Source: a virus. From it: DNA of 29,286 bases. The stretch lies in IMG/VR virus record IMGVR_UViG_3300027996_000125, positions 1 through 29,286 of that record; one strand, given 5' to 3'. The position numbers and the translations under genes were made by a program. The notes beneath the pieces are model-generated. The model was not told the origin of the DNA. It saw nothing but the letters and a program-made list of their open reading frames with translations, and did not search any database. Position 1 is the stretch's first letter; each line of letters opens with the position of its first letter. This document shows positions 9,925-16,748 of the stretch, in pieces.

Positions 9925-9980
9925 TAGGGTGGGTATTAATAACAGCCATTGTAATGTGGCTAATAAGAAAATTGAAATGA
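9921..9980 (+). CDS. 19-residue membrane micropeptide between loader and methyltransferase
   Basis: ATG 9921 overlaps the loader stop as ATGA, and its TGA (9978-9980) overlaps the methyltransferase ATG (9977) as ATGA. The peptide MIGWVLITAIVMWLIRKLK is one hydrophobic helix with a basic C-terminus, long enough to span or lie in the membrane. The perfect double overlap argues for a translated coupling gene and not a chance frame. Function unknown. Confidence 0.5.
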   Translation: MIGWVLITAIVMWLIRKLK

Positions 9981-10582
9981 AGATATTAAATTTATATGCG
10001 GGAATAGGTGGTAATAGAACCCTATGGGGTGATGAACACGAAATAACAGCAGTAGAAATAAATGCTGAAATAGCAGGGATATATAAAGCTAAATTCCCTA
10101 AAGATAATGTAGTAGTAACTGACGCACACTATTACTTACTAGACAACTATAAAGATTTTGATTTTATTTGGAGTAGCCCTCCTTGTCCTAGTCATAGTAA
10201 ATTATGTTATAGTCAAAACACAAAACAATATATAGATGTAACTTTATACCAACAGATAATATTACTAAAGTCTTGGTTTAAAGGTAAATGGGTTATAGAG
10301 AATGTTATTCCTTACTATGAGTATTTAGTTGAACCATCTTTTATTATAGGAAGACACCCTTTTTGGAGCAATTTTAATGTTACGCCTTTAGATGTAAAAA
10401 ATATAGATGTAGCTAGGAGTACTACTCAAGAGCTATCAGATTATTTAGGTGTACCTATGCCAAGATATAAAGCAGCTAAAACATTGAGAAATTGTGTAGA
10501 GCCAAATACAGGTTTACATATATTAAATTGTGCAGAAGGTATAATAAAAGAAAATAATGTAGAACAAAACAAACTATTTTAA
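9977..10582 (+). CDS. C5-cytosine DNA methyltransferase, compact (201 aa)
   Basis: Start ATG 9977 gives MKILNLYAGIGGNR. The open frame extends to 9929, but that would overlap the micropeptide and add unrelated residues. Motif I (LYAGIGG, 6-12), the SAM-binding acidic residue in AVEIN (E27), motif IV with catalytic Cys (SPPCPSHS, C70) and motif VI (ENV, 108-110) are visible. It would methylate cytosine C5 in phage DNA for protection from host nucleases. At 201 residues it is much shorter than typical enzymes (over 300); the target-recognition part is minimal, as in other small phage versions. With the Mom-like gene it points to multiply modified virion DNA. Confidence 0.82.
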   Translation: MKILNLYAGIGGNRTLWGDEHEITAVEINAEIAGIYKAKFPKDNVVVTDAHYYLLDNYKDFDFIWSSPPCPSHSKLCYSQNTKQYIDVTLYQQIILLKSWFKGKWVIENVIPYYEYLVEPSFIIGRHPFWSNFNVTPLDVKNIDVARSTTQELSDYLGVPMPRYKAAKTLRNCVEPNTGLHILNCAEGIIKENNVEQNKLF

Positions 10583-13954: not shown

Positions 13955-14497
13955 ATGAAACAACAAGTTAAGATCAGTAAAGTAAAGGGAAACCCTAACA
14001 ATCCTAGAATAATAAAAAACGATAAGTTTAAAAAGCTAGTCAAGTCAATACAGGATTTTCCTGAGATGTTAAAGTTAAGACCTATTGTAGTTGATGAAGA
14101 AATGATTGTCTTAGGCGGCAATATGAGATTAAAGGCAAGTAAAGACGCAGGGCTAAAAGAAGTATGGATAGAAGTAGCAGAAGGACTTACTGAAGAACAA
14201 AAGAAAGAATTTATAGTTAAAGACAATGTAGGATTTGGCGAATGGGAATGGGATATACTAGCGAATGAATGGGATAGCGTTCAACTAGCTGATTGGGGTT
14301 TAGATGTATGGCAGAATGAAGATGACTTAGAAGAACCTGACTTTAATGAATTAACAGAAGATAATAATAATAAACCACCAACAATAAAAATAACATTTGC
14401 TAATGAAAATGATTTGCAAAATGCTGAAGAACAAATAGCAGAAGTCGTAAGTAAATATGAAAAGGCAATATACTCAGTAAGTGCAGGAGAATTATGA
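13955..14497 (+). CDS. ParB/Srx-fold protein of a DNA-modification cassette (180 aa)
   Basis: Residues about 5-75 carry the ParB N-terminal domain pattern: NPNNPRI, FKKLVKSIQDF, LRPIVVDEEMIVLGGNMRLKA (split here as the VLGGNMR..A signature, 52-61), then AGLKEVWIEV. ParB/Srx-fold proteins include CTP-dependent DNA clamps and nucleases; phage versions are repeatedly linked to DNA modification genes and terminases. Residues about 95-125 are Trp/Asp/Glu-rich. The ATG of the mom-like gene overlaps its stop (ATGA at 14494), so the two proteins are made together. It may guide or regulate the modification enzyme; a partition role is unlikely here. Confidence 0.78.
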   Translation: MKQQVKISKVKGNPNNPRIIKNDKFKKLVKSIQDFPEMLKLRPIVVDEEMIVLGGNMRLKASKDAGLKEVWIEVAEGLTEEQKKEFIVKDNVGFGEWEWDILANEWDSVQLADWGLDVWQNEDDLEEPDFNELTEDNNNKPPTIKITFANENDLQNAEEQIAEVVSKYEKAIYSVSAGEL

Positions 14498-15132
14498 TAT
14501 TAAAAAAGGCTTCACATAAAGCTATTAAATATGCTTGTTTAAAATTTCACTATGCTAAAAGTGTGCCTGTAAATGTTTTAGGTTTTTCAGTTTTTAATAA
14601 AAAAAATGAATGGTGCGGTGTAGTATTATACGGAACAGGTGCTAATAATAATCTGAGTAAAGCATATTCTTTACCTCAGGGAAATGTTATTGAATTAGTT
14701 AGAATGGCGTTAAATGGTAAACAAGAAAGCACTAGCAAAGCACTAGCATTAAGTTTAAGAATACTAAATAAATATGTGCCACTTTGTAAAATGGTAGTAA
14801 GTTATGCTGATAAAGACCAAAATCACAAAGGCATAATTTATCAGGCAACAAATTGGATATATACAGGAACATCAATGAAAGACAAGCACGATAGCAGTTG
14901 GATTGTAAATAATAAAAGGTATCACGGTAGAATTATATCAGATTGGGTAAAAGATAAGGGAGGGCTTAAAGGATTAACAAGAGAGCAATTTATAAAGAAG
15001 TATTATGATAGTAATGCAAAAGCATATATAACAAAAGGAAAATTAAAATATATATATCCACTAACAAAAGAATTAAAAGATAAGTGTTTAAAATTAAAAA
15101 AACCTTATCCTAAAAATGCGAGTAAAGCATAA
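14494..15132 (+). CDS. mom: Mom-family adenine hypermodification enzyme (212 aa)
   Basis: Resembles the phage Mu Mom family (GNAT-like fold): FHYAKSVP (18-25), WCGVVLYGTGANNN (40-53), VIELVRMALNGKQESTSKA (65-83), VVSYADKDQNHKGIIYQATN (101-120, split by context) and the C-terminal KYIYPL (185-190) and KPYPK (203-207). Mu Mom converts adenine in DNA to N6-carbamoylmethyladenine (a glycinamide adduct), blocking restriction. Its small-molecule donor is, as far as I know, unsettled. The start overlaps the ParB-like stop. The last four codons and stop (15118-15132) form the acceptor and first D-stem bases of the tRNA-Gly-like RNA, a link between the enzyme and that RNA that is unlikely to be accidental. 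Confidence 0.85.
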   Translation: MILKKASHKAIKYACLKFHYAKSVPVNVLGFSVFNKKNEWCGVVLYGTGANNNLSKAYSLPQGNVIELVRMALNGKQESTSKALALSLRILNKYVPLCKMVVSYADKDQNHKGIIYQATNWIYTGTSMKDKHDSSWIVNNKRYHGRIISDWVKDKGGLKGLTREQFIKKYYDSNAKAYITKGKLKYIYPLTKELKDKCLKLKKPYPKNASKA

Positions 15133-15189
15133 AGAGTAATGCGTTGGCTATTCCAAGTCAAAGAAGGGGTGCAATTCCACCTACTCGCT
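15118..15189 (+). tRNA. tRNA-Gly(UCC)-like RNA overlapping the mom gene 3' end
   Basis: A cloverleaf is visible. Acceptor: GCGAGTA (15118-15124) / TACTCGC (15182-15188), 7 perfect pairs. D stem: GCAT (15127-15130) / ATGC (15139-15142). Anticodon stem: TTGGC (15144-15148) / GTCAA (15157-15161), one G.U, loop TATTCCAA with anticodon TCC at 15152-15154. T loop: TGCAATT (15170-15176) closed by G-C. The discriminator is T (15189) and no full CCA is encoded. G1-C72, C2-G71, G3-C70, U73, C35 and C36 are bacterial glycine identity features. Odd points: position 8 is A; the D loop AAAGAGTA lacks a G18G19 pair; the anticodon loop has 8 nt; the variable region is about 3 nt; T-stem pairs 49-65 (A.C) and 51-63 (G.A) are mismatched; GTGC replaces GTTC. 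It is probably charged with glycine but poor in translation. It is likely cut from the mom mRNA. Confidence 0.72.
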
Positions 15190-15205: not shown

Positions 15206-15559
15206 ATGGAACAAAATAGAACAAAGATTAACAAAGAGAGATTACTCAAAGCATTAGAAAGTTCTTTAGGAGTAATAACAACAGCTTTAAAAGCAACTGA
15301 CCTAAGTAGAACAAACTTTTATAAGTGGTTAAAAGAAGATGAAGAATTTGCAGCTAAGGTTGAAGAAATAGAAAACATACAACAGGACTTTATAAAGTCA
15401 AAGTATTATGAATGTGTAAAGGATAAAGTACCTTCAGTTGTAATACACGCAGCTAAGACTAGACTTGGTTGGAATGAAACAAACAGAGTAGATATAACTT
15501 CAGGCGATAAAGCTATTAATATGCCTGTTATAACATTTGTTGAAACTGATACTGAATAA
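15206..15559 (+). CDS. terS: Terminase small subunit (117 aa)
   Basis: An N-terminal helix-turn-helix (KERLLKALESSLGVITTAL, then LSRTNFYKWLKEDEEF) is followed by a helical oligomerisation region and the ending GWNETNRVDITSGDKA...PVITFVETDTE characteristic of small terminase subunits in Bacteroidetes phages. It recognises phage DNA and recruits the large subunit for packaging. It overlaps the large subunit gene by 23 bases and starts 16 bases after the tRNA-like RNA. Confidence 0.85.
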   Translation: MEQNRTKINKERLLKALESSLGVITTALKATDLSRTNFYKWLKEDEEFAAKVEEIENIQQDFIKSKYYECVKDKVPSVVIHAAKTRLGWNETNRVDITSGDKAINMPVITFVETDTE

Positions 15560-16748
15560 GAAATACAATCCATTATTTTCATCTGATGCTCGTTACTTTA
15601 TAATTACAGGCGGTAGGGGTTCAGGTAAGTCTTTTGCTGTTACAGTCTTTCTTACTTTACTTACTATGACTAAAGGGATTAGAATACTCTTTACTCGTTA
15701 TACAATGACATCAGCTCACTTGTCAATTATTCCTGAGTTCTTAGAAAAGATAGGGCTTCTAGGATTTGATGAAGCTTTTAGCATTAATAAAGCAGAAGTA
15801 GTTAATATAAAGAATAATTCAGATATATTATTTAGAGGTATCAGAACTTCAGCAGGAAACCAAACAGCAAGTCTAAAGTCATTACAAGGAATAAGCACTT
15901 GGGTATTAGATGAAGCTGAGGAGCTTGTTGATGAGAATATCTTTGACACTATTGATTTAAGTATAAGAGAAAAGACAATACACAATAGAGTTGTATTAAT
16001 ATTAAACCCTGTTACAAAAGAACATTGGATATATAAGAGGTTTTTTGAAGATAAAGGCGTAGAGGGTGGTTTTAACGGCTTTAAAGACAATGTATGCTAC
16101 ATACATACTAGCTACCTAGATAATATAATAAACCTCTCACAGAGCTTCCTAGAGCGTATTAAGAGCATAAAGCATACTAACTTTAAAAAGTATCAGCACA
16201 AAATACTTGGGGGGTGGTTAGACAAAGCAGAAGGAGTAGTCTTTGAGAATTGGAGTATAGGAGAATTTAATCCTGATGGCTTACAAACTTCTTGCGGTAT
16301 GGACTTTGGTTTTAGTGTAGACCCTGACTCATTGACTGAAGTAGCTATTGATAAAAGGAAGCGTAAGATATACTTAAAAGAACATATCTACAAGAATGGT
16401 ATTAAGTCAAACGAATTAGCTAAAATCATATTAGACAAAGTAGATAACAAACTTATCATTGCTGATTCAGCAGAGCCAAGACTAATAGCAGACCTTAGGC
16501 ATTTAGGAGTAAACATAAAACCTGTAAAGAAAGGAACTATTGAAAGTGGGATAACTAGAATGCAAGATTATGAACTTGTCATAACTCCTGAAAGCACTAA
16601 CATAGCTAAAGAGCTAAACAATTACATATACGCTGACAAAGGTTCTAAACTTTATGTAGACAACTACAATCACGCTATTGACGGTATAAGGTACAATGTA
16701 ATATACCACCTAGATAATCCAAACGCAGGGAAGTATTACGTGCAGTAA
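15537..16748 (+). CDS. terL: Terminase large subunit (403 aa)
   Basis: ATPase domain: Walker A GGRGSGKS (25-32), adenine-side FTRYTMTSAH, Walker B WVLDEAEE (122-129). Nuclease domain (RNase H fold): D256 in GMDFGF, D310 in IIADSAEP, D382 in NHAIDGIRY, the expected three acidic residues. It pumps DNA into the prohead and makes the termini, with a PBSX-like family pattern. No ATG is available near the N-terminus; TTG 15537 or TTG 15540 within the terS 3' end is the likely start, implying translational coupling. Length is normal. Confidence 0.93.
   Translation: MLKLILNKKYNPLFSSDARYFIITGGRGSGKSFAVTVFLTLLTMTKGIRILFTRYTMTSAHLSIIPEFLEKIGLLGFDEAFSINKAEVVNIKNNSDILFRGIRTSAGNQTASLKSLQGISTWVLDEAEELVDENIFDTIDLSIREKTIHNRVVLILNPVTKEHWIYKRFFEDKGVEGGFNGFKDNVCYIHTSYLDNIINLSQSFLERIKSIKHTNFKKYQHKILGGWLDKAEGVVFENWSIGEFNPDGLQTSCGMDFGFSVDPDSLTEVAIDKRKRKIYLKEHIYKNGIKSNELAKIILDKVDNKLIIADSAEPRLIADLRHLGVNIKPVKKGTIESGITRMQDYELVITPESTNIAKELNNYIYADKGSKLYVDNYNHAIDGIRYNVIYHLDNPNAGKYYVQ

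Follow-up and report, generated by a model that had tools for sequence, protein, structure and literature searches.

The mom gene of the virus studied here overlaps the start of a gene for a tRNA-Gly-like RNA, and RNAs of this family, with the same structure and conserved glycine identity elements, co-occur with mom across many phyla. We put at roughly 85% the probability that the RNA is a dedicated, phage-encoded, non-decoding tRNA-Gly which is charged by the host GlyRS and serves as Mom's glycine donor; what doubt is left concerns the biochemistry. The window (the whole stretch of DNA that was analysed, a virus record of 29,286 bp) contains the following features in this region; R1 is a covariance model made from 55 diverse copies of the RNA, the window copy being one of its seeds.

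13955..14497, + strand: ParB-like gene (ParB/sulfiredoxin domain), an ORF with a 4-nt overlap with the start of mom
14494..15132, + strand: mom, 212 aa, GNAT-fold DNA modification enzyme (PF25680, phrog_1384)
15118..15189, + strand: tRNA-Gly-like RNA, 72 nt including discriminator U73 (RF00005, model R1)
15118..15124, + strand: acceptor stem, 5' strand GCGAGTA; 7/7 pairs with 15182-15188, the inner four covarying
15127..15142, + strand: D arm, stem GCAT/ATGC; its pairs all covary and were not selected for
15144..15161, + strand: anticodon-like arm TTGGCT-ATTCCA-AGTCAA, with C35, C36 and A37; six covarying pairs
15166..15181, + strand: T arm GGGG-TGCAATT-CCACC, with a bulged A at 15179
15182..15188, + strand: acceptor stem, 3' strand TACTCGC, pairing with the 5' strand
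15189..15189, + strand: discriminator T (U73)
15206..15559, + strand: TerS, a neighbour outside the system (PF20901 and phrog_4044, both weak matches)
15537-16748: TerL, downstream of mom

The first-pass annotation of this DNA called the gene at 14494-15132 a member of the Mom family, and this assignment is secure: the protein is a full-length Mom by its match to PF25680 (E 7.4e-35; 120.9 bits against a curated cut-off of 27.1) and phrog_1384 with an E value of 2.9e-46. Its AlphaFold model (mean pLDDT 92) has the phage Mu Mom structure 8bv8 as its top structural match (Z 19.3, rmsd 3.0, 174 residues), the second-best match having a Z of 11.9, and Foldseek pairs it with Mu Mom at E 3e-11. Ser81 of the window protein is invariant among 31 homologues and is aligned with Mu Ser114 in the GenBank numbering; with a numbering offset of +10 the latter would be S124 of the 8bv8 title, where the S124A protein is called "inactive". 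FemX and L/F-transferase are absent among the structural matches listed for the window Mom, which is no argument against a relation. The window Mom would be expected to make N6-carbamoylmethyl-adenine. The ParB-like gene just upstream matches phrog_17622, phrog_498, phrog_940 and phrog_620, and ParB_N at E 2.4e-5, just under the Pfam cut-off; a ParB-like ORF lies just 5' of mom at 382 of the 453 mom loci whose 5' flank is long enough (a pseudo-replicated count). The arrangement suggests that this gene is a third component of the mom/RNA module.

The same annotation had described a tRNA-Gly-like cloverleaf beginning within the last mom codons, and this is confirmed by two models and by covariation. 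The Rfam tRNA model RF00005, run with permissive filters, covers 15118-15189 end to end with 35.8 bits (gathering threshold 29), and R1 scores the element at 72.7 bits (E 1.4e-16), its sole match in the window. An Rfam scan of the window with default filters did not detect the element, and ARAGORN found nothing there. The cloverleaf had also been credited with a UCC anticodon; the glycine identity elements are present as claimed, but the anticodon loop has 8 nt (6 nt plus an extra closing pair) instead of the canonical 7, and the T stem carries its bulged A. No CCA is encoded at the 3' end of the window copy. A descriptor that requires GCG...CGC, an acceptor stem and a CCA-containing hairpin gave no match in 1.2 Mb of shuffled sequence and this, together with the covariation, excludes a chance origin.

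The RNAalifold structure of the 55 diverse copies has a 7-bp acceptor stem, a D stem, a 6-bp anticodon stem and a T stem with one bulged A on its 3' side. In this alignment 97.4% of the cells are paired (67.2% after shuffling, 34-48% in slid controls), and 17 of the 20 pairs change on both sides. The copies had been selected for acceptor and T-arm pairing, and GCG and CGC were also search criteria, so the fairest evidence comes from the D and anticodon stems, which the selection ignored and which are nevertheless 99.4% and 92.4% paired, respectively. A canonical T stem with a G-A mismatch was considered and rejected, since at the A column the unbulged pairing is found in none of the 55 copies and the bulged pairing in all 55. 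Among 60 distinct copies chosen without regard to T arm or discriminator, all 60 have the bulged A and all 60 have U73. In distant copies, 63-67 nt long, the D arm is reduced or missing but the acceptor (GCG, CGCU), the bulged T arm, the CC and U73 are retained; a canonical T stem is present in two actinophage copies.

Bacterial GlyRS reads G1-C72, C2-G71, G3-C70, U73, C35 and C36, and every one of these is present in the window copy. All aligned copies have G1 C2 G3 at the 5' end and C70 G71 C72 U73 at the 3' end (GCG and CGC being search criteria), while C35-C36 is present in 51 and A37 in 49 of the 55. The rest of the anticodon loop is less regular: it has 7 nt in 35 copies, 8 nt in 17 and 6 nt in 3, and U33 is found in 25 of the 55. 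A loop that looks able to decode glycine codons (7 nt, U33, NCC) is present in 17 of the 55 sampled copies; the window copy lacks one, and it likewise lacks the canonical 5-bp T stem of a decoding tRNA-Gly. Of 244 distinct bulged copies, 101 encode TCCA. Where genomes were inspected, the element mirrors its host: tRNA-Gly and element both encode CCA in Clostridium and neither does in Bacteroidota. The T-stem pairs are where EF-Tu weighs aminoacyl-tRNAs, and the bulge of this family falls among them; the bulged A and the irregular anticodon loops would probably exclude the RNA from translation, and they may mark it for Mom.

One could suppose instead that the element is an ordinary phage tRNA-Gly which serves translation and merely travels beside mom. 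Its Rfam score over threshold, the many copies that ARAGORN calls tRNA-Gly, the decodable loops just mentioned and Microbacterium phage Appa, in which a canonical tRNA-Gly(ccc) lies convergent to mom, all fit this idea. We nonetheless think it very unlikely, given the universal T-stem bulge in the 55-copy alignment, the frequency of 8- and 6-nt loops and of bases other than U33, and the copies without a D arm that keep GCG, CGCU and CC. Mom is, moreover, the nearly exclusive neighbour of the RNA (below), and the ordinary tRNA-Gly genes of four bacterial genomes lie away from mom and show a canonical T stem. When R1 was run on those four genomes, all six matches of at least 61 bits adjoined mom, and the inspected matches of 53 bits or less lay away from it and, where they could be identified, were ordinary host tRNA genes. 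The R1 score alone cannot separate ordinary tRNA-Gly from the family, since Listeria phage LP-083-2, which has only ordinary tRNAs, has a tRNA-Gly with a canonical T arm that scores 55.5 bits.

Searches that started from mom found the RNA at most loci. The descriptor, applied to close mom relatives from IMG/VR, was positive at 106 of 112 loci with a mom match, and ARAGORN called an adjacent tRNA-Gly (tcc, ccc or acc) at many of the same sites, including some descriptor-negative ones; with both methods, the RNA is present at 79 of the first 80 close mom loci (L072 is the exception). A further 80 loci from a wider mom alignment, a few of them shared with the first set, have the RNA in about 64 cases, and two of the 16 negative ones end at the mom 3' end. 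Bacterial and MAG contigs with mom carry it at 29 of 65 loci; by record title these 29 belong to Bacteroidota, Bacillota, Acidobacteriota, several proteobacterial groups, Calditrichaeota, Planctomycetes and Chloroflexi. In a tree of 78 Moms with identities under 55%, 59 have the RNA, with at least 12 gains or losses. The cloverleaf is conserved beside most other mom genes, and the first of the first-pass annotation's own grounds for abandoning its proposal, a lack of such conservation, does not apply. Three Chloroflexi/Dehalococcoidia contigs (L362:2406-2478, L364:2388-2460 and L363:1880-1952) have the RNA 5' of mom rather than 3', and in some flavobacterial-type phages (L094:1479-2917, L161, L174 and L185) a single RNA is preceded by a pair of different Mom homologues, arranged in tandem or close together.

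The search in the other direction gave the same association. Two short T-arm motifs were scanned against IMG/VR with no protein criterion, and 187 of the 200 copies so found have mom within 59 bp. The other 13 include six near a contig end and two with mom at 375 and 1320 bp; for five of the 200 (L423, L438, L457, L469 and L475) no recognisable mom is present in the surrounding DNA that was fetched. The motif positions of the mom-less bulged copies are L423:809-837, L438:832-860, L457:4495-4523 and L475:11168-11196. The L438 copy adjoins a C5-methyltransferase-like ORF, and a partner enzyme other than Mom is possible there; the neighbours of the copy at L469:12970-12998 are a ParB-like ORF and another, short one, perhaps encoding a GNAT protein or Mom relative that has diverged.

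The layout of the loci bears on whether the RNA might act in cis, as a tRNA-like structure of the mom mRNA that would be a processing site, a 3' stabiliser or an autoregulatory site bound by Mom. In the window the first 15 nt of the RNA (GCGAGTAAAGCATAA) double as the final four mom codons and the stop codon, the stop is overlapped in many other copies as well, and in the usual layout among close relatives the RNA starts inside the last dozen bases of mom; the overlap with the stop codon would fit a cis element. In other relatives, however, the RNA follows mom directly on the opposite strand, and one large RNA subtype is mostly convergent to mom (59 of its 76 copies, against 17). Convergent copies are not part of the sense mom mRNA and so have no cis action on it, which argues for a trans-acting RNA; the GlyRS identity bases and the encoded UCCA end would also be unexpected in a cis element. 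We consider this explanation highly unlikely, and the dedicated, trans-acting tRNA-Gly remains our preferred one.

In the window the RNA lies just 5' of the TerS gene, a position that would also suit a DNA element, such as a tRNA-gene-derived site for integration, packaging or recombination. A control set of 80 loci was picked solely because their TerS is 95-100% identical to that of the window; 13 of these have mom and RNA, 67 have neither and none is discordant, although the loci are not independent events and we attach no formal probability to the split. The covariance model found the same 13, plus one contig that starts inside the element. Linkage of the RNA to TerS rather than to mom was rejected, the RNA being absent from every mom-less locus with a near-identical TerS. 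An apparent class of RNAs without mom (L090, L160, L163, L173, L179 and others) also dissolved on inspection, since a second, diverged Mom subfamily (Pfam Mom E values of about 1e-47 to 1e-49) is encoded directly upstream of the RNA there. The split in the control set and these diverged Moms at seemingly mom-less loci together show that the RNA tracks Mom and not TerS. Absence of the RNA from the 67 near-identical contexts without mom, its presence beside mom at loci with other neighbours and RNA-type covariation in all stems make a DNA element extremely improbable. Where the slot before TerS is free of mom and RNA (L085, L088, L095, L099 and similar loci), it often holds a DNA methyltransferase-like C terminus (ELDEKYCDVIIERWEQFTG, recognised by eye), as if DNA-modification modules were swapped at this place.

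Several named phages belong to the family. The annotated tRNA-Gly after mom in Salinibacter phage B2_17 is a bulged member, and the copy that overlaps mom in Arthrobacter phage Shade is unannotated and its T stem is canonical. Two tandem bulged copies (L212:2162-2299) lie unannotated between mom and TerS in Psychrobacter phage Y8A, which corrects the statement that this phage has no tRNA genes (PMC10434257). Neither beside mom nor elsewhere in the record was the RNA found in Mu, JD024, phiEf11, ICP1, Geobacillus PK3.6, Paenibacillus Callan, Enterococcus SHEF2, Salmonella VSiP, Polaribacter P12002L or a Porphyromonas phage, negatives that are not absolute since the whole-record search missed the Shade copy that another search found. 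Acinetobacter JeffCo has a weak distal match alone (15.4 bits), and Mom lineages without the RNA also include Listeria and Yersinia ones. The lack of the RNA in Mu, ICP1, phiEf11 and others means that some Moms do without a dedicated RNA; these presumably use host Gly-tRNA. The idea from which this analysis started, that a glycine-charged RNA works with Mom, is strongly supported in its core by co-occurrence in both directions, by the fixed identity elements and by the citation of a preprint (below), but it does not extend to all Moms.

The working of the system, from expression and charging through avoidance of EF-Tu to the transfer and the order of its chemical steps, is what we infer from these patterns. 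The RNA would be transcribed together with mom or convergently to it and then processed, and it would gain its CCA either from the gene or, where host genes do not encode it, by addition. Host GlyRS would then load glycine by way of G1-C72, C2-G71, G3-C70, U73 and C35/C36, and Mom would take the glycyl group from the RNA to N6 of adenine, where it would end as carbamoylmethyl, perhaps by way of a glycyl amide and a Smiles-type rearrangement as the first-pass annotation proposed. Carbamoylmethyl is a glycinamide unit and is equal in mass to glycyl. The resulting N6-carbamoylmethyl-adenine in the phage DNA would shield it against restriction. We lean, with distinctly less assurance than for the donor role, toward a broader picture of private glycyl-tRNAs for DNA modification: brought by the phage, marked by the bulged A, in some cases stripped of the D arm, charged by GlyRS, ignored by EF-Tu and required by the cognate Mom, they would make up a separate aminoacyl-tRNA pool.

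The Mom donor had been taken as unsettled by the first-pass annotation, and an older review guessed glycyl-CoA (PMC7824862). Use of a charged tRNA by Mom has, however, already been reported, according to the citation of a 2023 preprint (Silva et al. 2023, bioRxiv 10.1101/2023.03.24.534169) as ref. 435 of PMC12707154, and by that citation the tRNA-dependent chemistry of Mom is not new here. The mom-linked RNA family does appear to be new, as far as the citation of Silva et al. allows comparison, and among the papers searched none brings together tRNA-Gly, Mom-like and phage. A last alternative is a partner RNA with some role other than that of donor: it could regulate Mom or serve as its scaffold, or it could be a decoy by which host tRNA or host DNA is spared. 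The conserved bulge does suggest specific recognition by a protein and expressed Mom is toxic (PMC12707154), yet the conserved glycine identity bases, U73 and the often encoded CCA fit charging, and Mom reportedly uses charged tRNA (as cited in PMC12707154), so that we give this alternative only a very small chance beside the glycine-donor reading.

Mu Mom with its charged tRNA resembles the window system in enzyme family, fold, the aligned serine and, going by the cited preprint, tRNA-dependent DNA modification; unlike the window phage, which has its own non-canonical tRNA-Gly, Mu has no tRNA-like gene detected anywhere in its genome and needs a host tRNA. CmoY, like the proposed Mom/RNA pair, puts glycine onto phage DNA, but it uses free glycine and ATP, targets carboxymethylcytosine and involves no tRNA (PMC12783734). 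With RF00005 and bacterial tRNA-Gly(UCC) the family shares the acceptor, D, anticodon and T arms and the glycine identity elements, and it differs from them in the bulged T stem, the irregular anticodon loop, the members without a D arm and the linkage to mom. Staphylococcus has a non-translational tRNA-Gly that is used by FemX-type peptidyltransferases. That RNA is likewise a glycine tRNA variant outside translation which serves a transferase; the present one differs in being phage-encoded, in lying beside the gene of its enzyme, in its T-stem bulged A, in its DNA acceptor and in having the GNAT enzyme Mom as partner.

If the glycine-donor reading is true, these RNAs form a large family of phage non-coding RNAs, spread over many phyla, that carry an amino acid to DNA, and the mom/RNA linkage is independent genomic support for tRNA-dependent DNA modification. 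The mom/tRNA pairs would then be ready material for reconstituting such modification and for testing how an enzyme picks out its private aminoacyl-tRNA among those used in translation, and the forms without a D arm bear on the minimal substrate of GlyRS. Elsewhere in the window, at 9929-10582, is an ORF that resembles a DNA cytosine C5-methyltransferase (AGIGGN and PCPSHS motifs, recognised by eye).
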